Positions 47,055-61,309 of a DNA stretch of 64,000 nucleotides are shown here, piece after piece. This DNA is from Candidatus Poribacteria bacterium. Lineage in GTDB: Bacteria; Poribacteria; WGA-4E; WGA-3G. Location of the stretch: NCBI GenBank assembly GCA_003635255.1, contig PYJC01000136.1:1-64000 (forward strand), given 5' to 3'. The position numbers and the translations under genes are program-made. Each line of letters opens with the position of its first letter. Position 1 is the stretch's first letter. The notes beneath the pieces were generated by a model, which was not told the DNA's origin, searched no databases, and saw only the letters and a program-made list of their open reading frames with translations.

Positions 47055-48140
47055 TTAAATCTCCGGCACTCTCACTGCCACCTCTTTCCCGGCTGCATGT
47101 GAACGGAAGATACCGTCCATAATTACATTCGTGAGCAGAACACCCTCTGGTGGTATCGGCGATGGTCCGTCCGCTTTGACACCTTCTCGGAATTCGATCA
47201 TCTGTGTTGCCCAGTTATCAGATTGGGGAAACCCAGAGAACTGGATCGTCGTCATCCCTTCTGGCGGATTCGGTTCGGCTGTTAATCCTTCCGATTCGAC
47301 AAACTTCTTGAGCTCACCGTCATACGCATCCGCATAAATAACCGGTCCCCCCAACGAGAACCCCGCTTTCGTTCCAAGATGGAAGTTTCCACCGAGCGAG
47401 TCCTGATGCACCGCCCAAGAGATTTTGAACACCATCACGCCACCATTTTCAAACCGCACCCATGCCGCACCGAACTCTTCAACATCCATGATCCCCTTAA
47501 ATCTCGGATCTTGCTGCGAGATATAATCCTCGGTAATCGCGGAGACCCGCACCGGTTTCGGGTATCCCATCGCATACAGCGAAGCGTGCATGTTGTAAAC
47601 ACCGATATCGACGGTCGCGCCGGCACCTGCGGTCTTTTTGTAGATGAACGTATGTCCAGGGTTCCCGCGTCGTCGGCATCCTGCGGATTCAGAATAGTAG
47701 ATGTCGCCGAACAATCCCGCGTCGAACGCCTTTCTTATGAACTGGAGCCTCGGATCAAACGTCGGATTGAGACCGATCTGTAAGATTTTGCCCGATGCCT
47801 TTGCTGCCTGCACCATTGCTGTTGCATCGGAAAGCGTCGCTGCCATCGGTTTCTCACAGAGGACGTGCTTACCGGCGTTCAGTGCTGCGACGGTAGGTCG
47901 CCGATGCCCCTGATTGTAAGTGCAAACACTCACCGCATCAAGCCCGTCCATTTCGAGCATCTTGTTGTAACTTGAAAAAGCGTTCTTTCTGGGGACACCC
48001 CACTCGTCAGCAGCTTGGTTCGCCTTGCTTTTGATGATGTCGCAGACCGCGACGATCTCGAAACCACCGACTTTCTCGTATGTACTCCGGTGCGCCCGTG
48101 AAATGCCACCTGTACCAATAATACCAACTCGGACAGTCAT
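47055..48140 (-). CDS. Gfo/Idh/MocA family oxidoreductase (copy A)
   Basis: 'VGIIGTGGISRAH', 'KHVLCEKPMAATLSDA'. Confidence 0.92.
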   Translation of the reverse strand: MTVRVGIIGTGGISRAHRSTYEKVGGFEIVAVCDIIKSKANQAADEWGVPRKNAFSSYNKMLEMDGLDAVSVCTYNQGHRRPTVAALNAGKHVLCEKPMAATLSDATAMVQAAKASGKILQIGLNPTFDPRLQFIRKAFDAGLFGDIYYSESAGCRRRGNPGHTFIYKKTAGAGATVDIGVYNMHASLYAMGYPKPVRVSAITEDYISQQDPRFKGIMDVEEFGAAWVRFENGGVMVFKISWAVHQDSLGGNFHLGTKAGFSLGGPVIYADAYDGELKKFVESEGLTAEPNPPEGMTTIQFSGFPQSDNWATQMIEFREGVKADGPSPIPPEGVLLTNVIMDGIFRSHAAGKEVAVRVPEI

Positions 48141-48276
48141 ATTGTTACCTCCTCATAATCAATTTATGGTGAAATATGAAAATATTAGGATCTACGCATA
48201 ACCGAGGTATTCTCGATGGAAGATGGAAGAAACGGAAGAATGGTGGAACCTCTTCCACGCTTCCAGTCTTCCTATG

Positions 48277-48302
48277 AGGAAACACCCCAGCAAAAACACT
48301 TC
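48277..48302. repeat. Dispersed repeat GAGGAAACACCCCAGCAAAAACAC
   Basis: Matches 39187 and 62050. Confidence 0.65.
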
Positions 48303-48347
48303 CAATCCTGCAACAACTTGCTGATGGCTGCGGGTTGCTGACGGCTT

Positions 48348-49433
48348 TTAAATCTCCGGTACTCTCACAGCGATCTCTTTACCCGCTGCATGTGAACGGA
48401 AAATACCGTCCATAATTACATTCGTGAGTAGGACACCCTCTGGGAGTATCGGCGATGGCGTATCCGCTTTGACGGCTTCACGGAACGCCGTTATCTGTGC
48501 TTGCCAGACATCGACCTCTGGGAATCCAGAGAACTGGATCGTCGTCATCCCTTCCGGCGGGTTCGCTTCTGCGGTGAGTCCTTCGGATTTGACAAGTTTC
48601 TTCAGGTCATTTGTATAAGCATCGGCATAGACAACCGGTCCGTTCAGAGAAATACCTGCTTCTTTACCGAGACAAAAACTCGGACCCAACGAATCCTGAT
48701 GCACTACCCAAGAGATTTTGAATACCATCACACCCCCATTGTCAAACCGGACCCATGCGACACCGAACTCTTCAACGTCCATGATCCCCTTAAATTGCGG
48801 ATCTTGCTGTGAGATGCAATCCTCGGTAATCGCGGAGACACGCACTGGTTTTGGATACCCCATCGCATACAACGAATCGTGCATATTGTAGACACCGACA
48901 TCTACGATTGCGCCGGCACCTGCGGTCTTTTTGTAGATGAATGTACGTCCCGGATTCCTGCGTCGACTCCCGCCTGTAGATTCAGAATAATAGATGTCGC
49001 CGAGCAGCCCTGAATCGATCACCTTCTTAGCGAATTGGAGTCTCGGATTAAAAGTGCTGTGGATACCGATTTGCAAGATTTTGCCGGACGCTTTCGCGGC
49101 GCGGACCATTGCGGTCGCATCTGGGAGTGTCGCTGCCATCGGTTTCTCACAAAAGACGTGTTTACCGGCGTTCAACGCGGCCACTGTTGGACGGCGATGG
49201 CCTTGGTTGTAAGTGCAAACGCTGACCGTATCGATTTCGTCCATCTCAAGCATCTTGTTGTAGCTGGTGAAGACGTGTTTTCTGGGGACACCCCACTTAT
49301 CGGCAGCTTCATTCGCCTTGCTTTTGACGATGTCGCAGACCGCGACGATCTCGAAACCGCCTACTGCCGTATAAGTCCTGTGGTGTGCACGTGAGATACC
49401 ACCTGTACCCACGATACCGACTCGAATCGTCAT
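48348..49433 (-). CDS. Gfo/Idh/MocA family oxidoreductase (copy B)
   Basis: Same length (361 aa) and highly similar to copy A. Confidence 0.92.
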   Translation of the reverse strand: MTIRVGIVGTGGISRAHHRTYTAVGGFEIVAVCDIVKSKANEAADKWGVPRKHVFTSYNKMLEMDEIDTVSVCTYNQGHRRPTVAALNAGKHVFCEKPMAATLPDATAMVRAAKASGKILQIGIHSTFNPRLQFAKKVIDSGLLGDIYYSESTGGSRRRNPGRTFIYKKTAGAGAIVDVGVYNMHDSLYAMGYPKPVRVSAITEDCISQQDPQFKGIMDVEEFGVAWVRFDNGGVMVFKISWVVHQDSLGPSFCLGKEAGISLNGPVVYADAYTNDLKKLVKSEGLTAEANPPEGMTTIQFSGFPEVDVWQAQITAFREAVKADTPSPILPEGVLLTNVIMDGIFRSHAAGKEIAVRVPEI

Positions 49434-49612: not shown

Positions 49613-50794
49613 TCATACTTCTCGATCAAGCTCAATTTGTTCAAGCTTCATCACATACGCTGAATCAATAATGCTCTTCCCTATTTCAAAGTGTCCGTCG
49701 CTGAATGCAGCATAGATAGCGTTACGGCATCGTTTATTAATGTTACGAGGTGTTTTGTTCTCTAAGTCCTCTAAAAGCATTTCTAAGGCTGTTAGATCAA
49801 ATGGGTAAGTCTCAGGAAGCCCTTCTGGTAGAAGAGATTTGTCGCGGTATTGAGGATGATTGATGAGTTCACTTACATATTCCACTGCTTCATTCAGATC
49901 TAATTCAGGAAAATAAATAACATCAGTGATACGGTCTAGCAAAGCACCACCTAAAATCACATTGAATTCCTCATATGCTTCGGGGTCCGCAAGGGTCATA
50001 TTCAGAAAAAGCGTGAAGAAATTGGGAAGTCGATCTATCAAGTCCCGGAGGCCTTGTGTCACAATGCGGAACTGAGAAGAAGTAAGATAAATTAGGTCCT
50101 CTATCTCATCAACCCAAAGACAGACGCGTGAATGTTGAGACTTTTCTTGGCTTGGATTTAGTCCAATTAGACATTGTAGGACACCTGCTAGTACTCGAAA
50201 TCGATCCTGTGATTTGCTAATGTTCCGTGCTATACCAAGTTTTCTCAACTCAGTCCGGGTACAACCCTCTAAAAAGTACGCTCGCAATAAAGCTTGTTTT
50301 TCGCCTGTATTCTCTGTCCCAAATAACCAGAAGGCACGTGCTAATTCTTCACTACCAAGAACCGTTTGGAGCAGTTTCATTGCTTCCGCCTCGGATAACT
50401 GGCAGACGGACTCTCGAATAATTTTGTGAACATAACTCATACCTAATGTGTCAAGGATGTCAATATAGAAATCCTCAGCGGGTTTTCCAGGATCCTTTGG
50501 GGCACAAATGTTTATTTGGTGAATTGGAGTTTCGCTGGTCGGTATTGAAGATAAGTATTTATCGCTGGCAAAGTAGATTGCAGCGTGAGTTTTCCCACCG
50601 CCGTAAAGTCCTCGGTTGAGAACAACTTGAGTAGCAGAATCGGAAACTGCGACTTTAAAGATTTCATCAAATTGCCGTTTTACTCCCTCCATTCCGGCCC
50701 AAATGACCTGTTCAGAATCTACTGGTGGTGTCAGATCAAAAGGATTCTTTTTTAAAAAAATATAACCCCAATTGAATTTACTAATCATTGTCAA
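49613..50794 (-). CDS. AAA+/ORC-like P-loop ATPase, third gene of Dnd-adjacent triad
   Basis: 'NPFDLTPPVDSEQVIWAGMEGVKRQFDEI', Walker A 'NRGLYGGGKTHAA', Walker B 'VCLWVDEIEDLIYL'. Confidence 0.75.
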   Translation of the reverse strand: MTMISKFNWGYIFLKKNPFDLTPPVDSEQVIWAGMEGVKRQFDEIFKVAVSDSATQVVLNRGLYGGGKTHAAIYFASDKYLSSIPTSETPIHQINICAPKDPGKPAEDFYIDILDTLGMSYVHKIIRESVCQLSEAEAMKLLQTVLGSEELARAFWLFGTENTGEKQALLRAYFLEGCTRTELRKLGIARNISKSQDRFRVLAGVLQCLIGLNPSQEKSQHSRVCLWVDEIEDLIYLTSSQFRIVTQGLRDLIDRLPNFFTLFLNMTLADPEAYEEFNVILGGALLDRITDVIYFPELDLNEAVEYVSELINHPQYRDKSLLPEGLPETYPFDLTALEMLLEDLENKTPRNINKRCRNAIYAAFSDGHFEIGKSIIDSAYVMKLEQIELDREV

Positions 50795-51450
50795 CTCCTT
50801 GTTTTCGGGTAAGCTGGTAATTGGGAAAGGGTCTTGTTAATTTCTTTCAATTTGCTATGATAGCACTCAAACCTTTTTGTTGGGATACCTCTTTGACCAC
50901 CCAGACGACTATTGATATCTCTTAATACTCCCTCAGCTATTTGAAAGCGAAATCTATTCCAATGTCTGGTAAAAAGATACAAGACGAAATCAAGAGATGA
51001 CCAGATTTTTCCGATCCTAAAAGTGTCAAACACTTGAAACAAAAAACCATCCTGTTTTGAATCAGTCGTTTTCAATTCATCAGTTAGAAAAATTACTTGG
51101 CGATATTTTCCACTTAGAACTGCCTCCAACGCTACGCAACAATTATGTCGCTCTCCTCGATCTCCTCTATTGTCTAAATTCGGGTAGAAGGACTGCAGGA
51201 AAGCTTTTTCCAATTTATCAATTGGCACTTGAAAGCTCCATTTTGATCTATTGCATTGCTTTTGAATGTTACCTTTAGCTAGTATTTGGTGGGATTGAAT
51301 CTCATCACAGATTGTCTTACTTAATTTAACATCAAATTCCTTCCATAGCCAAAGCCGAAGATCATCGTTGATCACTTCAATATCACGCATGTGGATAAGT
51401 GAATTTGTATCAGGTATACATAGTAACGCTGAAGTTTGTATATTATGCAT
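50791..51450 (-). CDS. PIN-like nuclease domain protein, second gene of triad
   Basis: 'LCIPDTNSLIHMRDIEVINDDLRLWLWKEFDVKLSKTICDEIQSHQ' and 'VIFLTDELKTTDSKQDGFLFQVFD'; overlaps both neighbours. Confidence 0.65.
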   Translation of the reverse strand: MHNIQTSALLCIPDTNSLIHMRDIEVINDDLRLWLWKEFDVKLSKTICDEIQSHQILAKGNIQKQCNRSKWSFQVPIDKLEKAFLQSFYPNLDNRGDRGERHNCCVALEAVLSGKYRQVIFLTDELKTTDSKQDGFLFQVFDTFRIGKIWSSLDFVLYLFTRHWNRFRFQIAEGVLRDINSRLGGQRGIPTKRFECYHSKLKEINKTLSQLPAYPKTRS

Positions 51451-52561
51451 GTCTCCTCACAAGATAGGATTCGTTTTCCCGAGCTGATATTTTAGCTTCA
51501 TATTTATAGTTTTCCAATGTCCGCGGTTCCTGAAACCATTGAATGAGATCTCCAAGGTTTGTAAGTATATGTAACTGTGTTACTAAACGAATACATAGAT
51601 ACATCGCTCCTTGCGTGAGAGGGATCTTTGGAATGCTTCTCCGAAATTCATTAAACGCTATAGGAAGGTATTGTTTACAAGCTTCTCGGCGAACCTCATC
51701 ATCAACGTCTTGCCACTGCCGAAAATCAGGTGCAGAAATCATGAGTGGACTGATGTCTGAAAAAAACTGGGCACTAAACCATGCATCTGTAACATCAGAT
51801 ATATTAGGATTTTTCAATTTTTGGAAGGTTTTTGTCAAATTCTGCCCAGTTTCCGTAAGTTGATAAATAAAACTATTTTTTTCTTTTCTTAAATCTAGCA
51901 ACCCAAGATCTAAAAGCCAGTGTAAACGAGGCGGAATGATGTAAGCAGCATAACCTTCGGGCTTTTTCCATTCTGTCGTAACCTCAACCTGTCTGTCATG
52001 TAAGCGATTTACGATGTGTCCTTGTGAACTTGTCGAAATTTTTGCTTTGAGGCGGTCTAGAAAAGCCTGTTGAAAATTCTTTTGTAAATTTTTGAGACTG
52101 GGGTTCTCAAGCGATTGGAGCATATTGACGATAGTTAGCAGCGTATCAGCATCTTGCTGTAGGATCTGGTAGATGTAAAAAATTCTTTCATCGTGATCAA
52201 GATATAATGAGTTTAATTCATTGTTAGGTTTATCGTTGAGCAGACTCAAGAGAACGCGTCCAATTCTTGTTAATTGATAAACATTTGATATTTTGGAGAG
52301 TAATCCGAATTTAACAGTTAAGTCAAGATAACTAGTACTTAATAAAGTCATCCCTTTTTTCTCTAGGGAGTGTATCGTCCCTGTATGGTATTTATAATTT
52401 TCAAGGCTGTTTGCCTGAGTATTGCTCCAATCTTTTAATTTACTCACGAAAATATCTTCATTCAATGGACGTTCTCCTACAAGTCGTAAAATTTGCGATA
52501 GGTACCTAAGTCTGCGGACGAGTGAGCTGGAGACTACAATCTCACGATAAGAAATTTTCAT
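51443..52561 (-). CDS. Winged-helix-like protein, first gene of triad
   Basis: Leu-rich wHTH-like segments 'YLDLTVKFGLLSKISNVYQLTRIGRVLLSLL' and 'LHWLLDLGLLDLRKEKNSFIYQLTETGQNLTKTF'. Confidence 0.6.
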   Translation of the reverse strand: MKISYREIVVSSSLVRRLRYLSQILRLVGERPLNEDIFVSKLKDWSNTQANSLENYKYHTGTIHSLEKKGMTLLSTSYLDLTVKFGLLSKISNVYQLTRIGRVLLSLLNDKPNNELNSLYLDHDERIFYIYQILQQDADTLLTIVNMLQSLENPSLKNLQKNFQQAFLDRLKAKISTSSQGHIVNRLHDRQVEVTTEWKKPEGYAAYIIPPRLHWLLDLGLLDLRKEKNSFIYQLTETGQNLTKTFQKLKNPNISDVTDAWFSAQFFSDISPLMISAPDFRQWQDVDDEVRREACKQYLPIAFNEFRRSIPKIPLTQGAMYLCIRLVTQLHILTNLGDLIQWFQEPRTLENYKYEAKISARENESYLVRRHA

Positions 52562-52791
52562 AAGTGTTAACCCTGCTTCTACACGAATAGTCAGGTCAAG
52601 GACTGCTTGCTGTCTGTAACCCCAATTCCTGTGCTACCGTTGTTTTGAATATAAAAATGTGTAGTTTCGGAAAGTGAGTGTTCCCAAGTTTAATATGATA
52701 AACAAAGATATTTAGTTTCATCTAGCCATCACCAATTGATATTCTAACAGGAGTTACGAGTGATCGCAAGTAAAAAACTGAAGTGTAGAGA

Positions 52792-52836
52792 AAAAATGTG
52801 ACATTTTTAGTTGAACTATGCTATACTTTATAGCAT
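52792..52836 (+). promoter_or_regulatory. Predicted dndC promoter with two palindromic operators
   Basis: AAAAATGT-G-ACATTTTT (52792-52808) and ATGCTATA-CTT-TATAGCAT (52818-52836); GTGACA-N18-TATACT; dndC ATG at 52883. Confidence 0.6.
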
Positions 52837-52882
52837 GTGTTAGGAAATCAACCACTATTTTCTTTTCGTAAGGAAGTAACTC

Positions 52883-54292
52883 ATGGCAGAAGCACCGTAC
52901 ACCATCTTCAATTCGCGCACTGTTGATGATATCCACCGCGAAATTCAAGAAGTCTATCTTGAAAACGCAAGACCGTGGGTTATTGGGTACAGCGGTGGAA
53001 AAGATTCAACGACCGCCCTGCAACTCGTTTGGGATGCCCTCGCTGGCCTGTCGTCAGAACAACGGAAGTACCCAGTCTATGTGATTTCGTCCGATACACT
53101 TGTTGAAACACCAGTTATTGTTAGTTACATTACTGGGACTTTAGATCGGATCAAGATGACCGCGCGCAAAGAGAAGATGCCATTTGAGACCTCGCTTGTA
53201 TATCCAAAAACTGAGGACACTTTCTGGGTTTCTCTCATAGGTAAGGGTTATCCGGCACCGTATAATCGTTTGCGTTGGTGCACGGACAAAATGAAAATTC
53301 GACCTGCCAATAGATTTATCTTAGAAAAAGCTTCTGAATATGGGGAAGTTATCCTTGTACTTGGCGTGCGTAAAGGCGAAAGTGCTACACGCGACCAAGT
53401 AATGAACCTACATCAAACTAAAAATTCGTTACTTTTGCGGCATAGTTCACTTCCTAACGCATTTGTTTATGCACCAATCGTTGATTTTAGTCTTAACGAT
53501 GTTTGGATGTATTTATTAAGTAACCCTCCGCCGTGGGGTGGAGATCATAGACAACTTGTTACACTCTACCGAAACGCTAATGGACAAGGGGAGTGTCCTC
53601 TGGTTGTTGATGAGACAACTCCATCCTGTGGTAACAGTCGATTTGGGTGTTGGACTTGTACCGTTGTTTCTAGTAGTCATTCAATGGAGGGATTAATTGA
53701 CAGTGGTGAAGATTGGATGCTACCATTGCTGGAGTTTCGAGAGATCCTCATGGAGACTCAAGTCCCTGAGAGAAAGGCGAATGTTCGCGAACATAAACGG
53801 CGCAACGGTAGAATTACAAGAGATAAAGACACTGGCAAATTAGTACGTGGTCCCTATACCCTTGAATTTTGTAAGGAACTTTTAAGAAAGCTTCTCGAAA
53901 CTCAACAGAAAGTTCGTTCGATAGGACCTGATCCGAATATTGAGCTTATCACACATGCAGAACTTGAGGAAATTCGCAAAATTTGGCGGACAGAGCGCCA
54001 AGATTGGGAAGATGCGGTGCCACAGATTTATGCGGATGTTATTGGTGAGTATGAATGGATTATTGATGATACAACATCCTTTTCAGCAGCAGATAAGGTG
54101 TTATTGTCTTCAATTTGCAATGAAAAGAAAATCCCTGTCACCCTTGTGGCGAAATTGTTGGATACAGAGCGACAAATGGATGGAATGAGTCGGCGGGCAA
54201 GAATCCAATCTCAAATTGATGCGGTTTTCAGTGAAGATTGGGAATCAGAAGAAGAGATCCTCGCTACCCTAAGTGTTAATAATCAACAATGA
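52883..54292 (+). CDS. dndC: DNA phosphorothioation protein DndC (PAPS reductase-like)
   Basis: 'WVIGYSGGKDSTTALQLVWDAL', 'LRWCTDKMKIRP', 'GNSRFGCWTCTVV'. Confidence 0.93.
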   Translation: MAEAPYTIFNSRTVDDIHREIQEVYLENARPWVIGYSGGKDSTTALQLVWDALAGLSSEQRKYPVYVISSDTLVETPVIVSYITGTLDRIKMTARKEKMPFETSLVYPKTEDTFWVSLIGKGYPAPYNRLRWCTDKMKIRPANRFILEKASEYGEVILVLGVRKGESATRDQVMNLHQTKNSLLLRHSSLPNAFVYAPIVDFSLNDVWMYLLSNPPPWGGDHRQLVTLYRNANGQGECPLVVDETTPSCGNSRFGCWTCTVVSSSHSMEGLIDSGEDWMLPLLEFREILMETQVPERKANVREHKRRNGRITRDKDTGKLVRGPYTLEFCKELLRKLLETQQKVRSIGPDPNIELITHAELEEIRKIWRTERQDWEDAVPQIYADVIGEYEWIIDDTTSFSAADKVLLSSICNEKKIPVTLVAKLLDTERQMDGMSRRARIQSQIDAVFSEDWESEEEILATLSVNNQQ

Positions 54293-56313
54293 TCCTTCAT
54301 AAACTTACTCTCAACAATGTTGGTTTGTTCAGTAAACCACAAACTGCTCACCTTACACCAAACAATGGCAAACCTTTAATCCTGATCGGAGGGATGAACG
54401 GTACTGGTAAAACAACATTGTTGGAAGCTGTTCGTCTCTGTCTGTATGGTCGCCGAGCACTGGGATCTCGAGTTAGCCAGAATGAATACAATGAGTTCCT
54501 TGCTAAAATGATTCACAGGAACCCTAATTCAGTATTGTCGCCCGAGCAAGCGTCTGTGTCCCTTGAATTTGAATACGCTCGTAACAATGAAAAAAGGCAG
54601 TTTCGCGTTGAACGATCTTGGCAACGTTATGGTACTGTCGGCAATATTAAAGAAGTACTAACAATATACGAGAATGATGAGTTAAACACTGAATTTGACG
54701 CAGAGCATTGGCAGGACTACCTTTATGAACTGATTCCAATCGGAGTATCCCAATTTTTCTTTTTTGACGGTGAGGATATACAGAAATTGACAGACGATTC
54801 CACCCACGATTTTTCTCTCGCTGAGTCAATTAAAGCACTACTTGGAATTAACTTAGTGGAGCGATTACAATCAGATCTGCGTATCTATGCTAATCGTCTG
54901 TTCAAAAGTAATAGTCCTGAACCAGTCCAAACAGAGATTGAGACGATAGAAGCAGAAATCGCCACACTTAGGACATCGCTTACGGATGCGGAGGCACACA
55001 CGGTATCACTGCACACTCAAATTAAGGAACTAGAAGCACAGATTGCGAGACAAGAATCCCGCATCGCTGCAGAAGGCGGAAGTTATGCAGAAAAACGAGA
55101 GAGCTTGAAACTTCAACAGGAGCAGCTGTGCACTGAAATTGAAGAATTAGAAAATGAGATTCGTGATCTATGTGGAGAACTGTTTCCGTTTGCGCTAGGA
55201 TCTGATCTGCTTAAACGGTTGAGAAAACGACTCCTTAAAGAGATTGAATTAGGCGAATGGGAATCGCGAAATCGCGCTTTAAAAACCCAGAATAAGAAAC
55301 TTCTTGAGACCCTTGAATCTGGAACATTTTGGGACGATGCCTCCTTATCAGAATCACAAATTGAAATAGTTCGGTCCAAGATTGCGCCGCTTTTAAAAAT
55401 GCAACTCGAGCGTCCAGAGAAATTGCAAGCGTTCAAAAAAAAACGAGACCGCTCCATCTCAGAGTACAATCAACTGTTAAAGTGGATTGATGCTTGTCTC
55501 AACGATGTTCCCCAAAAATTTAGGACATTGGACCATACCTTGAGGGAAATACAGTTAGAACAACAAAGAGTAGAACAGGCTCTTCAGAGAGCACCAGACG
55601 AAGATATCCTGAAACCAATGATTGAAAATCTATCGTCATTAAATCAGAGTCTCGGACAATTACGCAAACAGGAGCAAGATGCTGACAGATCAATCCGTTC
55701 TTTAAATTACCAGTTAGCGGAAACGGAACGAAAACTACAAAGACTACATAATACTGAGCAATTAAGAGAAACAAACATTCAACGCCAAAAACAGGTAGAG
55801 GATGTGCAATCGGTCCTTTCTATTTATACCACTAAACTTACAGAAACAAAAATTGTGACATTGGGTAATGCTATCGTTGAAGGGTTTAATCAGCTTTCCC
55901 ATAAACCTGATCGAATTAAGCGGGTTGAACTTGACCCACGGACCTTTGCAGTCAAACTCTATGATACCGACAATCAACCGCTTTCAAAGGAAGAATTATC
56001 CGCGGGTGAAAAACAGATCTATTCAACTGCCCTACTATGGGGATTAGCAAAAACATCTGGCAAAGCACTACCAATGATTCTTGACACACCGCTTGGACGT
56101 TTAGATAGCAATCATCGTCAACTCCTAATTGAGCGTTATTTTCCCTATGCCAGCCATCAGGTGATCCTACTCTCAACCGATACCGAAATTGACAAGTCTT
56201 TCCTATCGTTATTGGAACCACATCTCTCACACACGCTTCATTTAGTGTATCAACAGGCTGAAACTCGTACGACTATAGAAGATGGGTATTTTGGAGAATT
56301 ATTATGCGATTAA
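54289..56313 (+). CDS. dndD: DNA phosphorothioation ATPase DndD (SMC/SbcC-like)
   Basis: Overlaps the dndC stop; 'LILIGGMNGTGKTTLLEAVRLCLYGRRALG', 'FFFFDGEDIQKL', 'ELSAGEKQIYSTALLWGLAKTSGKALPMILDTPLGRLDSNHR'. Confidence 0.92.
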   Translation: MILHKLTLNNVGLFSKPQTAHLTPNNGKPLILIGGMNGTGKTTLLEAVRLCLYGRRALGSRVSQNEYNEFLAKMIHRNPNSVLSPEQASVSLEFEYARNNEKRQFRVERSWQRYGTVGNIKEVLTIYENDELNTEFDAEHWQDYLYELIPIGVSQFFFFDGEDIQKLTDDSTHDFSLAESIKALLGINLVERLQSDLRIYANRLFKSNSPEPVQTEIETIEAEIATLRTSLTDAEAHTVSLHTQIKELEAQIARQESRIAAEGGSYAEKRESLKLQQEQLCTEIEELENEIRDLCGELFPFALGSDLLKRLRKRLLKEIELGEWESRNRALKTQNKKLLETLESGTFWDDASLSESQIEIVRSKIAPLLKMQLERPEKLQAFKKKRDRSISEYNQLLKWIDACLNDVPQKFRTLDHTLREIQLEQQRVEQALQRAPDEDILKPMIENLSSLNQSLGQLRKQEQDADRSIRSLNYQLAETERKLQRLHNTEQLRETNIQRQKQVEDVQSVLSIYTTKLTETKIVTLGNAIVEGFNQLSHKPDRIKRVELDPRTFAVKLYDTDNQPLSKEELSAGEKQIYSTALLWGLAKTSGKALPMILDTPLGRLDSNHRQLLIERYFPYASHQVILLSTDTEIDKSFLSLLEPHLSHTLHLVYQQAETRTTIEDGYFGELLCD

Positions 56314-56666
56314 ACCGCATTCAAATATCTGAGGATTCCCGCAATAAATTGAGCATCCTGAAAGGTCGCACTGGGTTACTGCCGAATGTTCTTAGTAGAA
56401 TTGGGTTGGTGCTCTCGCTTGCTGAATCCAGCGAACCGGTAATTGATGCGGATCCAACAGATGGATCCGATTTTAACCGCTTCACACTGATGGGAGAATG
56501 GGATTCGTTGATTGTAGCACTATTGGAGGAACGAGGAAGTACTAACGGCATGAACATGGATAATGATACCCTTGTTAAGTACTTCCGGGCTCACCTAAAT
56601 CGAGGAGTTCTATTGCTTTACAGCCGTGTAAAAGGGCTTGAGGATCTGGCGAATCTTCTGCCTTGA
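56304..56666 (+). CDS. dndE: DNA phosphorothioation protein DndE
   Basis: Overlaps dndD; 'KLSILKGRTGLLPNVLSRIGLVLSLAE...FRAHLNRGVLLLYSRVK'. Confidence 0.88.
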   Translation: MRLNRIQISEDSRNKLSILKGRTGLLPNVLSRIGLVLSLAESSEPVIDADPTDGSDFNRFTLMGEWDSLIVALLEERGSTNGMNMDNDTLVKYFRAHLNRGVLLLYSRVKGLEDLANLLP

Positions 56667-56670
56667 AATT

Positions 56671-57135
56671 CTATTGGACTGAGGGAATTATATCACTATA
56701 TGGTTCCCAGTTTAAGAGTAGATTAACTAAATTTTCAACTCTGTTACCAGGTGCATCTTCAACTTGTTCTTTAATCACAATAATTCCACCATTAGCGTAC
56801 CCCTCTGCAATACTTTGTATTTCCTTTTCATTCAATAACACTTCTGGACTCCCAGTTTTAGCAAGTGCCAAGGTACGAAGAAGGGACATGTCACCTTCTT
56901 TTAGGGTAGTTCTGGGGAAGATATTTCGCAAATTCTTTTCCAAGGGCACCCATTTTTCCTCAAGGCATCCAATCAACGCAGCCAACATAAATATGTATTT
57001 CATCTCCCTAAAAGGAGGGTATTTCTCATCCTCTTGGGATTTTCTTAAGTCTTCATAGAGTTGATGATACGACGAATCAATATTGATAAAATCTCGTGGT
57101 TGATCGGTTGTATTGATCTCAATATCTTTAGGCAT
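56671..57135 (-). CDS. Small Dnd-system-associated protein (dnd_assoc_4-like)
   Basis: 154 aa; 'FREMKYIFMLAALIGCLEEKWVPL...LLRTLALAKTGSPEVLLNEKEIQSIAEGYANGGI'; convergent with dndE. Confidence 0.6.
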   Translation of the reverse strand: MPKDIEINTTDQPRDFINIDSSYHQLYEDLRKSQEDEKYPPFREMKYIFMLAALIGCLEEKWVPLEKNLRNIFPRTTLKEGDMSLLRTLALAKTGSPEVLLNEKEIQSIAEGYANGGIIVIKEQVEDAPGNRVENLVNLLLNWEPYSDIIPSVQ

Positions 57136-57150
57136 TTATATGTTCCTTTC

Positions 57151-59082
57151 TCATTCAATTCGTTTGATAGTAGTGACACTTATCTCGTCGTCAAAACATA
57201 ACTCGTATTCTGTCCCGATTCGTGGTTCAAGGTTTCTCCATGCTTGCTCATCAGGTCTCAGTTCTTGATCTGTAACAAATAAAATCAGTTGATTAGCAAT
57301 CGCTGGAATATTTTCTGTGATGTTTTCTTTTGGTTTGTCAGAGAGTTTCGTAAAAGGAGCATCCATTACAATTGGGAAACGTTCCGCGGGTATATCGGGC
57401 AATTTTTCCTTAACTGCTACTTTTGCTAATGCCGCAATGAAGGCTAGACTCAAAACTTCACGTTCCCCCGCAGATATTTCAGAGCTGACTTGTCCATCGT
57501 ATCGGTCAATAACTTGAAGTTCGTAATCCAAACTAAAACGCACCTCACGAAATGAATTTTCCTTCCAAATTAGCCTCTTGAAAATATTACTGACTTCATT
57601 TTCAAGATTTCTTCGGATATTCTCTTCATGTGGTTCATACAATTTTTTCATTGCTGCTGCTGATTCCATAGCAAGCCGCCGACAGCGATTTAGGCGTTCT
57701 GCATCAACTTTCAAAGATTCTGCTTTATCAATTTCCTTATCTAATGCCTCTATTTCCATCTTGATTTCACGGATTTTTTCTTTGATCTGATTAATTTCCC
57801 CCTCTAAAAATCTAATCTCTCCAGTGTATTTATCCTGAGCGTTTTTATGCTTCTGAAAATCGTCGTCATCGAAATTTTGAAGGCTCCCTTTAATTTCCTC
57901 TAAACGTGCCTCATTTGCCTCAATACTCTTATCCAAGCGTTGTTCTTCACTCAATGTTGATTTAACATCAACAGGGATATTTTCAACCTTACCTTCTAAC
58001 AATCGCTTTAAACTATTTTCTGTTTCTCTTGCAGCAACACCAAACTCAGGAGAAACATTTTGCGAAATCAAATTCTGAATATGTTTATACTCAGAGCTCC
58101 CTTGATGGATAGACCGCCCACAGAGACAATACATTTGTTCAAGTATTTCATTCAAGACAGTCTCCGGGATACCGATTGGTGCTTTGCTACTTTGAAGAAT
58201 TTTTAATGCTTTTTGTATAACAGGTTTTGCTAAGGGGATATAACCATCATTGGCGAGTTCTCGAATTTTGACCTGATATTTTTCTTTTTCATTCATGTGG
58301 TGTTTGAGATCCATTATAATTTTCTTTTCTTCTTCAAAAAGTTGACGAGTGTCCTCATATTCTTGAAGTACTTTATCTATGTCCTGTTTATGCTTACGCG
58401 CAATTTTGATTTTTTCCAACCTATCGTCAACCTTTTTTCTTTCACTGAGACAGAGTGCTTCTTTTTCCTCTTTTTCATTAATTAATATCTTCAATTTGTC
58501 AGGCACATATCTTTTGAGTTTGCTCTGATAATTTTGAGCCACTTTTTCTAAATGGGTAATACCACGTTCAAACAGTTCTATTCTTAGAACATTGCGCACG
58601 GCACTCTTAATTTCTTCTTCATTTCCTTGTCTGGCAAAATTATCGATTTTTTCCCCATCAAAGAAAAAGTGGGCACTTACATCCTCCGGGATCATAGAAC
58701 GAATCTTATCTGATGCTGCAGCATCCAGATCTGGAGGCTCATTCTCTTTTTGCAGCAAAAGAGTCGTTTTATCATTGCGTAGAGATCGGCATTTTCGCAA
58801 TACTCGGTACCTAATATTCTGATCAACAATGCCTATTTCTACAGAAGTATCAGCGTTTTCTGCCTGTGCCACAACACGTCTATTTACGAATTCACGAGTG
58901 TTTCCTTTAAAAAAAGAATCTCCGTACAGACACCAGTTGAGGGCAGTAAGTAGAGAGGTTTTCCCTGTCCCGTTGATCCCTCTAATAACAGTTACATTAC
59001 AATATTCATCAGTCGCAAAGTGGATAGTTTGCTCATCATAATATGGACAGAAATTTTTCAACTTAATATAACGAAATATCAT
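57151..59082 (-). CDS. Second SMC/DndD-like AAA ATPase
   Basis: 'MIFRYIKLKNFCPYYDEQTIHF...VIRGINGTGKTSLLTALNWCLYGDSFFKG', 'AHFFFDGEKIDNFA', 'EISAGEREVLSLAFIAALAKVAVKEKLPDIPAERFPIVMDAPFTKLSDKPKEN'. Confidence 0.85.
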   Translation of the reverse strand: MIFRYIKLKNFCPYYDEQTIHFATDEYCNVTVIRGINGTGKTSLLTALNWCLYGDSFFKGNTREFVNRRVVAQAENADTSVEIGIVDQNIRYRVLRKCRSLRNDKTTLLLQKENEPPDLDAAASDKIRSMIPEDVSAHFFFDGEKIDNFARQGNEEEIKSAVRNVLRIELFERGITHLEKVAQNYQSKLKRYVPDKLKILINEKEEKEALCLSERKKVDDRLEKIKIARKHKQDIDKVLQEYEDTRQLFEEEKKIIMDLKHHMNEKEKYQVKIRELANDGYIPLAKPVIQKALKILQSSKAPIGIPETVLNEILEQMYCLCGRSIHQGSSEYKHIQNLISQNVSPEFGVAARETENSLKRLLEGKVENIPVDVKSTLSEEQRLDKSIEANEARLEEIKGSLQNFDDDDFQKHKNAQDKYTGEIRFLEGEINQIKEKIREIKMEIEALDKEIDKAESLKVDAERLNRCRRLAMESAAAMKKLYEPHEENIRRNLENEVSNIFKRLIWKENSFREVRFSLDYELQVIDRYDGQVSSEISAGEREVLSLAFIAALAKVAVKEKLPDIPAERFPIVMDAPFTKLSDKPKENITENIPAIANQLILFVTDQELRPDEQAWRNLEPRIGTEYELCFDDEISVTTIKRIE

Positions 59083-59249
59083 GATACATCAATTTCCTTT
59101 TCAATAATTCTCTGAATATCTTCAATAATACCACGAGGATTTCGGAGATGCTGCTTTTGACGTTCGGCTATAAGCACCTTACGAATTACGCTTTTTACAT
59201 GATCGGTTAAGTCCGTATCTGACTTGGATAATTGTTTTTCTTCTTTCAT
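59079..59249 (-). CDS. 56-aa small protein inside the Dnd-associated operon (absent from the ORF track)
   Basis: Hand-translated MKEEKQLSKSDTDLTDHVKSVIRKVLIAERQKQHLRNPRGIIEDIQRIIEKEIDVS*; TGATG overlap with the upstream helicase stop and overlap with the downstream ATPase start. Confidence 0.75.
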   Translation of the reverse strand: MKEEKQLSKSDTDLTDHVKSVIRKVLIAERQKQHLRNPRGIIEDIQRIIEKEIDVS

Positions 59250-61309
59250 CAAGTTTCTCCTAATACCCCTAAAAGATTGTAGTTCTTAGCAAGTTCCCAT
59301 ATTTTATCACGTGCCTCAAATTTGTTTAAAGCCATTCCAGCGAATTCGTTAAATCTCTCTAATTCCCGCGCAACAATTTTCCGCTCTGTGCGAAATGTTG
59401 CGGTTGGATATTGCCGGTAATCTATAGGTGGTACAGCGATTAGATCGTGGATCTCTGCGTGTTCTTTACCGGAGGACTGACGGAGAATTCGTCCTCGCCG
59501 CTGGATAAATTCTTTTGGGTTACTACTGCTCGCAAGGATGTAAGCCGTTCGAGTGCTTGGGACATCAACGCCTTCATCCAGACACTTCATTGCTACAAGA
59601 GCCTGAAGATGTCCAGACGCGAACATCTTTAACAGTTCTTGTCTTTCAGCAGCTGATTCTTCCGCTGTAAATTTTGCAACACGTAATCCTAAATCTGTTA
59701 ACAATTCAAGAACTGGAACGATTCGCCCAGGAGCACAATAAAACAACGTATGATGCAGTGAGTCAGTTTGGTCAGTTAACAATTCTGTTAACTTTGCTAA
59801 CTTGTTTTCGGCTCGGTTGAGTAGCGTCGCTCGTTTTATCAATAACCGTTCGAGTGCTTCACTTGTCTCACCAGATTCTGTCTGATGATAAAGTTTGGAA
59901 ATACTTTCTGTGAGACGTTCGTACGCTTCAAATTCTTCATCAGTCAATTCAACGAGATGTGGATGATAATAGTAAGGACAGAGATACCCGTTTTTAATTG
60001 CTTTGTCCAGAGAAAATTCGTAAACTGTATCTCCAAAATAGGTCTGGAGTGCAGTTGTACCTGATGCGTCAAACCAGCGGTTAGGTGTTGCTGACAAGCC
60101 GAGACGGTAATCAAAAATATCGGTTAATCTTTTGCGGCTCCGTTCTGCTCCAAGATGGTGAACCTCATCTGCTACCAAAACAGCACCACGCTTCAACTTG
60201 GATAGCAATTTCTGCATGGTCTCAGCAATAAAAGTAGTTTGTGTTGTAATCGTACAGACAACATCTCGAACACCATAATTATATCGCACTAAGGCGGTGT
60301 TAAGCCGATTCACCCAACTTTTGGAACTTTTGTATGCAAGGATCGGTTCAAATCCGAATCTGATAGCCTCTTCATACCACTGATCGACGAGGTGCTGATA
60401 TGGACACGCAATAACTACAAACAAATTTTCCTTTTCTTCCCTCAGTTTAGCAAGCGCGGAAAGAGCCGTAATAGTCTTACCAGTTCCGGTTGCCATCTCC
60501 CATAAACCACGGCATTCGTTTTCAAACCAAGCCTCAATCGCTTCAGATTGATATTTCCTTAGTACTATGTCTTTTGGCAAATAGGGAACGATCTGCTCAA
60601 TTATTTCGGGTTTATCTGTTGTCTCTACTTGTCCGGTTTCATACACTGTTTGGTGGATTAAAAGTTTTTCCGCAACAGCGTTCAGAAAGTCTATTACCTC
60701 CAACTTCTCCGTGTTATTATCCCACAACCTCGCAAAATTATCTACCTTTTGTTGGACGCGTTCTTGAGCATCATCCCACGACCAATGAACATCAATAGAT
60801 TCAAAATTGTTTAACAAACCGCCGACAGTTTCGTTCGATGAACCTGAAAATGCTACGGCGTTGTTATTATCATCTAAAAAGACTCCTGTTTTTTCGTGAT
60901 AAACAGCGTGCTGATAATTTGTGCTTAAATCGAAGGGAGATGCGATTTTAATGTCTAAATGCTCATGTGCAATTAGCCAAGTGAGCAACATTAACCTATC
61001 GTGGGAAACTTTCTCAAAATCGCAATCAAGGGAGGTATCTAAATTCTGTTCTCTTTCTTCGTAACCGCGTTGAATCGCTTCAATATCGTCGGACATTAAT
61101 TTAGGCCCCGTTACTAAACTCATTTGTCCGCCATGTCGAATAAAAGTGGATAATCCTCTCACATTTAGGGCAAGCCCATTGCTGGTAAAATAGGCTACTG
61201 CTCGCCAATATTGCGTAGCATTTTTCAGACACGGGGTATAAAAATCTGTGACGAGGTTAGCTCCATCGGAGCGATATTCATATTGCAACGAGAGTTCTTG
61301 GAGTGACAT
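59249..61309 (-). CDS. SF2 helicase with PLD-like N-terminus, probable Dnd-system restriction protein
   Basis: 'WEMATGTGKTITALSAL', 'VADEVHHLGAERS', 'RRGRILRQSSGKEHAEIHDLI'; N-terminal PLD-like 'HAVYHEKTGVFLDDNNNAVAFSGSSNETVGGLLNNFES'. Confidence 0.82.
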   Translation of the reverse strand: MSLQELSLQYEYRSDGANLVTDFYTPCLKNATQYWRAVAYFTSNGLALNVRGLSTFIRHGGQMSLVTGPKLMSDDIEAIQRGYEEREQNLDTSLDCDFEKVSHDRLMLLTWLIAHEHLDIKIASPFDLSTNYQHAVYHEKTGVFLDDNNNAVAFSGSSNETVGGLLNNFESIDVHWSWDDAQERVQQKVDNFARLWDNNTEKLEVIDFLNAVAEKLLIHQTVYETGQVETTDKPEIIEQIVPYLPKDIVLRKYQSEAIEAWFENECRGLWEMATGTGKTITALSALAKLREEKENLFVVIACPYQHLVDQWYEEAIRFGFEPILAYKSSKSWVNRLNTALVRYNYGVRDVVCTITTQTTFIAETMQKLLSKLKRGAVLVADEVHHLGAERSRKRLTDIFDYRLGLSATPNRWFDASGTTALQTYFGDTVYEFSLDKAIKNGYLCPYYYHPHLVELTDEEFEAYERLTESISKLYHQTESGETSEALERLLIKRATLLNRAENKLAKLTELLTDQTDSLHHTLFYCAPGRIVPVLELLTDLGLRVAKFTAEESAAERQELLKMFASGHLQALVAMKCLDEGVDVPSTRTAYILASSSNPKEFIQRRGRILRQSSGKEHAEIHDLIAVPPIDYRQYPTATFRTERKIVARELERFNEFAGMALNKFEARDKIWELAKNYNLLGVLGET

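Follow-up and report, generated by a model that had tools for sequence, protein, structure and literature searches.

The window analysed here, a 64,000-nucleotide stretch of a Candidatus Poribacteria contig, carries a dnd-pbe island and, beside it, three closely spaced, co-oriented ORFs of the minus strand (49613-52561 in the ORF list of the window), named TriA, TriB and TriC in the order of reading (Table 1). The dnd genes provide double-strand and the ssp genes single-strand phosphorothioation (PT). An earlier note, made from the sequence alone, had pointed out the three coupled ORFs and their head-to-head position with respect to dndC; both are present as described, the intergenic region listed in Table 1 lying between TriA and dndC. 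There is an overlap of 8 nt between TriA and TriB, with a GAGGAG just 5' of the TriB ATG. TriC may start either at a TTG at 50794, giving 393 aa, or at an ATG at 50788 with an AAGGAG 5' of it, giving 391 aa; the ATG is the better start, in which case TriB and TriC abut without overlap. The first overlap reported earlier (51443-51450) is thus real, while the second (50791-50794) hinges on the TTG start.

Table 1. Coordinates of the three-gene cassette and of the dnd-pbe genes in the window
Feature	Coordinates	Strand	Basis
TriC, AAA+ ATPase of TniB/AAA_22 (Orc/Cdc6-like) type, ~391 aa	49613..50788	-	motifs; profiles
TriB, PIN-like putative nuclease, 219 aa	50791..51450	-	conserved residues; model; weak PIN_4
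TriA, winged-helix DNA-binding protein, 372 aa, first cassette gene	51443..52561	-	ORF; HTH_45; model; Foldseek
Intergenic region TriA-dndC, divergent	52562..52882	.	321 bp; conserved in part among four dnd-type loci
dndC	52883..54292	+	TIGR03183 553 bits; PADLOC DndC E 1e-194
dndD	54289..56313	+	TIGR03185 524 bits, above cut-off
dndE	56304..56666	+	TIGR03184 and PF08870, both above cut-off
Gene in pbeD position, dnd_assoc_4-like	56671..57135	-	TIGR04062 E 5e-12, below cut-off
pbeC, CxC-type ABC ATPase	57151..59082	-	PADLOC PbeC E 3e-112
Candidate pbeB, 57 aa, overlaps pbeA and pbeC	59079..59252	-	small ORF in right slot
pbeA, HKD/PLD nuclease-SF2 helicase	59249..61309	-	PADLOC PbeA E 5e-247; TIGR04095 565 bits, cut-off 600

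Some features of the surroundings are worth recording. In its C-terminus (residues 407-449), DndC is similar to the small Sp protein known from Dnd systems (PF20306, below the cut-off with E 1.6e-4; PADLOC PbeB, E 0.017), in what would be an apparent fusion of the two proteins. Two tandem, near-alike genes for Gfo/Idh-type oxidoreductases (47055-49433) flank the dnd island in the window and in many relatives, indicating a stable chromosomal hotspot. Moreover, dnd and ssp coexist in the genome to which the window belongs, which also harbors an sspBCD locus (L133, G000:C95) where an HNH nuclease lies upstream of sspB.

The earlier note had also allowed that the triad might be homologous to the archaeal PbeABCD genes. 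This proved mistaken, since the pbe module is a separate one at 56671-61309 and TriA, TriB and TriC have no match to PbeA-D at E<=1 in PADLOC and NCBIfam. The PbeABCD system (PMC6459918) is shared with the triad as far as the dnd island of the window is concerned, but its proteins are unrelated and are encoded separately by pbeA, pbeC, the gene in pbeD position and the candidate pbeB; the common island is all that speaks for homology, whose probability is practically negligible.

The triad is a genuine conserved gene cassette. Profile searches covered 86 Poribacteria genomes plus some 300 genomes from other phyla, and matches were found in 11/86 Poribacteria genomes for TriC, 9/86 for TriB and 11/86 for TriA. 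Nine full cassettes were identified in eight Poribacteria genomes, dN/dS lies between 0.13 and 0.23 for each of the three genes, indicating purifying selection, and the Walker residues are kept in 10/10 TriC sequences, so that the ORFs cannot be due to chance. No cassette was found in the roughly 300 genomes of other phyla, where the one weak match to the C-terminus of TriC (G168, E 2e-4) has no PT genes nearby; so far, the cassette is confined to Poribacteria. No Pfam or NCBIfam family is matched above its curated cut-off by TriA, TriB or TriC, and none of them has a convincing match in PHROG or PADLOC. No named defence system was matched in the libraries searched and, as far as these and the papers covered show, the supplementary tables of the dnd survey apart, the cassette is undescribed.

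The four motifs quoted in the earlier note (PDTNSLIHMRD and LTDELKTTD in TriB, GLYGGGKTHAA and CLWVDEIEDL in TriC) are all present. Its assignment of TriC to AAA+ ATPases of ORC/CDC6-like type holds well: Walker A (GxxGxGKTH), Walker B (CLW(I/V)DE), N263, D285-R286 and TPR348 are kept in all ten members, the residues outside the Walker motifs having presumed sensor and arginine-finger roles. The best matches of members of the family are to TniB (E 0.0013) and AAA_22 (E 0.0041), with a weak match to the BrxD profile (E 0.041); no match was found among the sequences of solved structures. On these motifs and profiles, TriC is placed among the AAA+ ATPases of TniB or Orc/Cdc6 type.

The winged helix (wHTH) proposed for TriA is borne out by a match of residues 213-251 to HTH_45 (E 7.9e-5; 23.0 bits, just below the cut-off of 25.5) and by partial Foldseek matches of its AlphaFold model (mean pLDDT 67, confident from about residue 123 onward) to the wHTH proteins TubR, AF1382 and SmtB, with probabilities of 0.97-0.85 and E values that all exceed 0.1 and thus support the fold type only. 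Among the sequences of solved structures, TriA weakly matches the wHTH of AspA. This weak likeness to AspA and TubR, together with the presence of an AAA+ ATPase, would fit a plasmid partition or replication locus. However, among 72,556 plasmid records there is no relative of TriC, and matches to TriA are at chance level only; the search of plasmids, phages and viral contigs gave neither a TriC homologue nor a cassette. The chromosomal neighbours are conserved within each type of locus and the partner is nuclease-like, making a locus of this kind highly improbable.

For TriB, the evidence is more mixed. PIN nucleases carry three or four acidic residues, each at a set position of the fold. D14, S17, E50, G99-E100, N103 and T123 of TriB are invariant, and D124 is present in all members but one, which has N. 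By sequence, D14 after strand 1, E50, E100 and D124 after the strand 118-122 fit the PIN pattern. The model (pLDDT 84, pTM 0.82), built on only nine sequences, has a PIN-like order of strands and helices. PIN_4 matches three of the nine members weakly (best E 0.046), in register in the two that were inspected, one from each subfamily, and in one of them residues 5-124 align with profile positions 2-118. No PIN structure is among the Foldseek matches listed for PDB and BFVD, the best of which have E > 0.05 and low TM-scores, and no match was found among the sequences of solved structures. Comparison with sets of PIN proteins by hhalign gave no match, a test insensitive enough that several control pairs of known PIN sets missed each other too; in an HMM ranking against PIN and background proteins the best p was an unconvincing 0.03, uncorrected and for one of several sets. 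A PIN fold, to which the start noted earlier pointed, is consistent with the motifs, acidic positions and secondary-structure order and weakly with PIN_4, but is not confirmed by Foldseek; in our judgement the fold of TriB is probably PIN-like.

A gene-neighbourhood search for the cassette with and without dnd revealed copies at both kinds of PT locus. Four full cassettes are divergent from dndCDE (the window, G026, G012 and G018; loci window, L014, L013/L016 and L015), and four copies are divergent from sspBCD (L018-L021), in G035, where SspB, SspC and SspD match strongly, in G031, as a second copy in G026, and in G007, the last without TriB. An additional full cassette in G029 lies at a contig edge, and sspB begins at base 1 of another contig, consistent with ssp adjacency. 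In G076 (L017), a member of another family, sspB lies directly after the cassette and is codirectional with it (L017:3516-7599); sspC and sspD are absent from this contig, and beyond sspB follow a protein with an HD domain and another, of 817 aa, that combines Mrr-catalytic with NACHT domains. Wherever a copy has both TriA and TriC and its surroundings can be assessed, it adjoins dndC or sspB. Although PT systems are common in these genomes (dndC above cut-off in 28/86, DUF4007, i.e. sspB, in 47/86), adjacency in every judgeable copy is not to be expected by chance, since a PT locus together with flanks of 5 kb occupies far less than 1% of a genome of 5 Mb. The neighbours are common to the dnd copies, and likewise to the ssp copies, leaving about three independent contexts rather than ten. 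The PT-linked effector proposed in the earlier note has thereby gained a second, independent association, that with sspBCD.

The same distribution bears on the other possibility raised there, namely a PT-independent defence module sharing the island, which would simply favour such hotspots. PT loci do lie in stable hotspots that gather defence cargo, and some of them carry several modules. However, dnd and ssp are different PT systems in different hotspots, which makes passive sharing of one island unlikely, and the cassette, found in two hotspots and in the third context of G076, has dndC or sspB as its immediate neighbour in each case open to assessment. An independent module is therefore now an unlikely explanation. 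We hold still less probable a regulatory or toxin-antitoxin unit, in which TriA would repress a common divergent promoter and TriB would be an addictive PIN toxin, with no sensing of an invader. Such a unit would account for a wHTH gene heading the cassette, divergent from the PT operon, and PIN proteins are common, with 11 PF01850 matches in the genome of the window. On the other hand, a simple toxin-antitoxin pair leaves no room for an AAA+ ATPase whose catalytic motifs are invariant, cassette and sspB point the same way in G076 instead of diverging, and upstream of TriA the intergenic regions of the dnd-type loci have one short block in common and little else.

Moreover, the cassette appears, from sequence comparisons, to move as a unit bound to no single PT machine or recognition subunit. 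The triad of G076 is closer to the dnd type than to the ssp type (TriC 57-60% versus 48-50% alike), and yet lies beside sspB, suggesting a change of partner. Compared with L018, the loci L019 and L021 retain a likeness of about 80% in TriA and TriC, against only 49-60% in SspB and SspC, indicating that the cassette tolerates different recognition subunits. The distance matrices of TriA, TriB and TriC agree (r 0.91-0.96), shared descent accounting for part of this agreement. Between the window and L014, the triad is 60-70% alike versus 80-91% for dnd and hence diverges faster.

Full-length TriB is always accompanied by TriA and TriC (9/9), whereas G007 harbors TriA and TriC without TriB, and G023 only TriA, beside sspB. 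This pattern suggests the signature of a toxic effector, TriB being harmful without its partners, although the cases are few and the asymmetry comes from two genomes. In G007 (L021:9679-11986, contig G007:C105), an intact TriA is followed by a TriB-like start (MDI) that continues in frame as TriC, whether by natural deletion or as an effect of assembly. In G038, a genome that has no sspB, a decayed remnant lies a long way from dndC.

At PT loci that lack the triad, other nucleases are often present nearby, either HNH_2 or a PIN protein with a partner. The latter, found near dndC at other Poribacteria dnd loci, is a two-gene module in which a true PIN protein (c28, PF01850 E 4e-12) overlaps c22 (about 220-280 aa); its sites are L097:6384-7456, L109:6351-7543, L110:7701-8944, L114:6361-8651 and L014:4359-5329, the last near a triad. 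It is a candidate toxin-antitoxin-like PT accessory. The HNH_2 family c6 (about 300 aa) occurs at L098, L099, L101, L103-L105, L114, L126-L129, L132 and L133, spanning dnd as well as ssp loci, and is thereby, like the triad, linked to both PT systems. HNH and triad are never found together in one fetched locus, with weak statistics given the relatedness of the genomes. In addition, PbeA-like proteins (33-35% to PbeA of the window) lie directly behind sspD at L127:16598 and L129:16844, where no other pbe gene was recognised.

Among known systems, SspFGH (Wang et al. 2021, PMC8092258) is similar in that it consists of three genes beside sspBCD, one of them with a Walker A ATPase. Its sizes in the S. 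americanum operon (589/513/1821 aa) differ from those of the triad (372/219/391 aa), and SspH has an FtsK-type part, whereas none of the three cassette proteins matches FtsK. Homology to SspFGH was rejected, as blastp and hmmsearch gave chance-level matches only; the comparison set was the three S. americanum plasmid genes in SspFGH position beside sspBCD, not the V. anguillarum originals. No DndF, DndG or DndH model is among the matches of TriA-C at E<=1 in PADLOC and NCBIfam, in so far as these libraries include such models. Closer in composition are the conflict operons described by Rakesh, Aravind and Krishnan 2024 (PMC10853773), which combine an Orc/Cdc6 ATPase, a DndG-like protein with multiple wHTH domains and a nuclease, and which share with the triad the type of ATPase, a fast-evolving wHTH protein, a nuclease partner and links to PT. 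Their nucleases are REases, often with HerA/FtsK, while the triad has a PIN-like protein, no HerA/FtsK, and a position beside dndC or sspB. PIN/HEPN RNases border dnd loci as suicide backups, at times on the opposite strand (PMC10853773), and PIN nucleases are among the less common backups in a survey of BREX (PMC12839542). TriB has the same border position, at times on the opposite strand, but these nucleases are standalone backups or are accompanied by OLD-ABC ATPases, whereas TriB belongs to a three-gene cassette with a TniB-like ATPase. Finally, BrxD and TniB, to which TriC has weak profile matches, are likewise standalone AAA+ ATPases, with a BrxHI helicase and a transposase, respectively, as partners. 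The cassette is a candidate for a recognisable kind of system, a PT-linked, ATPase-gated nuclease.

Our preferred reading, slightly more probable than not, is that the three genes make up an ATP-gated nuclease effector tied to PT systems. In favour of this are the conservation of the cassette and its motifs, purifying selection on its genes, its association with both dnd and ssp and the loss of TriB where TriA and TriC are retained. Against it stand the PIN fold, which Foldseek does not confirm, the mere two genomes behind the loss asymmetry, the small number of independent contexts and the absence of homologues from the plasmids, phages and viral contigs searched. The three genes would be co-transcribed and their products would form a complex, in which TriA and TriC may assemble on DNA as the sensing and switching part, and TriB would be the effector, kept inactive until TriA/TriC meet their trigger. 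The trigger would presumably be invading DNA, or the failure or absence of the PT mark. Once released, TriB would act as a PIN nuclease and cut nucleic acid, RNA, as a suicide or dormancy backup, being a somewhat more likely substrate than unmodified DNA. The conflict operons and border RNases (PMC10853773) and the BREX backups (PMC12839542) slightly favour suicide by a gated RNase of this kind over the restriction of DNA that lacks the mark.

Restriction instead of suicide, with TriA/TriC scanning DNA, PT protecting the host and TriB nicking or cutting unmodified DNA in the manner of DndFGH and SspFGH, seems to us rather unlikely, if worth serious attention. The combination of an AAA+ ATPase, a wHTH protein and a nuclease suits DNA targeting, SspFGH and DndFGH do damage unmodified DNA (PMC8092258), the remnant of G038, far from dndC, is decayed, and PT genes are beside every judgeable copy. 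However, the cassette has no translocase (HerA/FtsK) or helicase, unlike DndH and SspH, and pbe genes are already near the dnd-type copies. Moreover, the toxicity of SspFGH is not counteracted by Dnd-type PT (PMC8092258), whereas members of this cassette family accompany dnd as well as ssp, including divergent SspB/SspC. The earlier interpretation, an ATP-gated nuclease complex linked to PT, is thus partly supported, being right in its main line and wrong on possible Pbe homology, with the PIN fold and the sensing of unmodified DNA as proposals.

To our knowledge, none of the PT effector families studied by experiment has been demonstrated to serve Dnd and Ssp alike. It is possible, though on balance doubtful, that the triad represents such a type, in which an AAA+ ATPase and a wHTH reader would gate a PIN-type nuclease and respond to the PT mark or its loss, largely independently of the motif. 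The linkage of one cassette to both PT chemistries makes this testable: the effector may recognise the PT mark whatever the motif, or may serve as a backup when PT fails. A known restriction partner is lacking at most ssp modification loci, 2,211 of 2,678, and the existence of further partners of ssp, yet to be found, has been proposed as possible (PMC8092258). The triad is a concrete candidate for such a partner of ssp.
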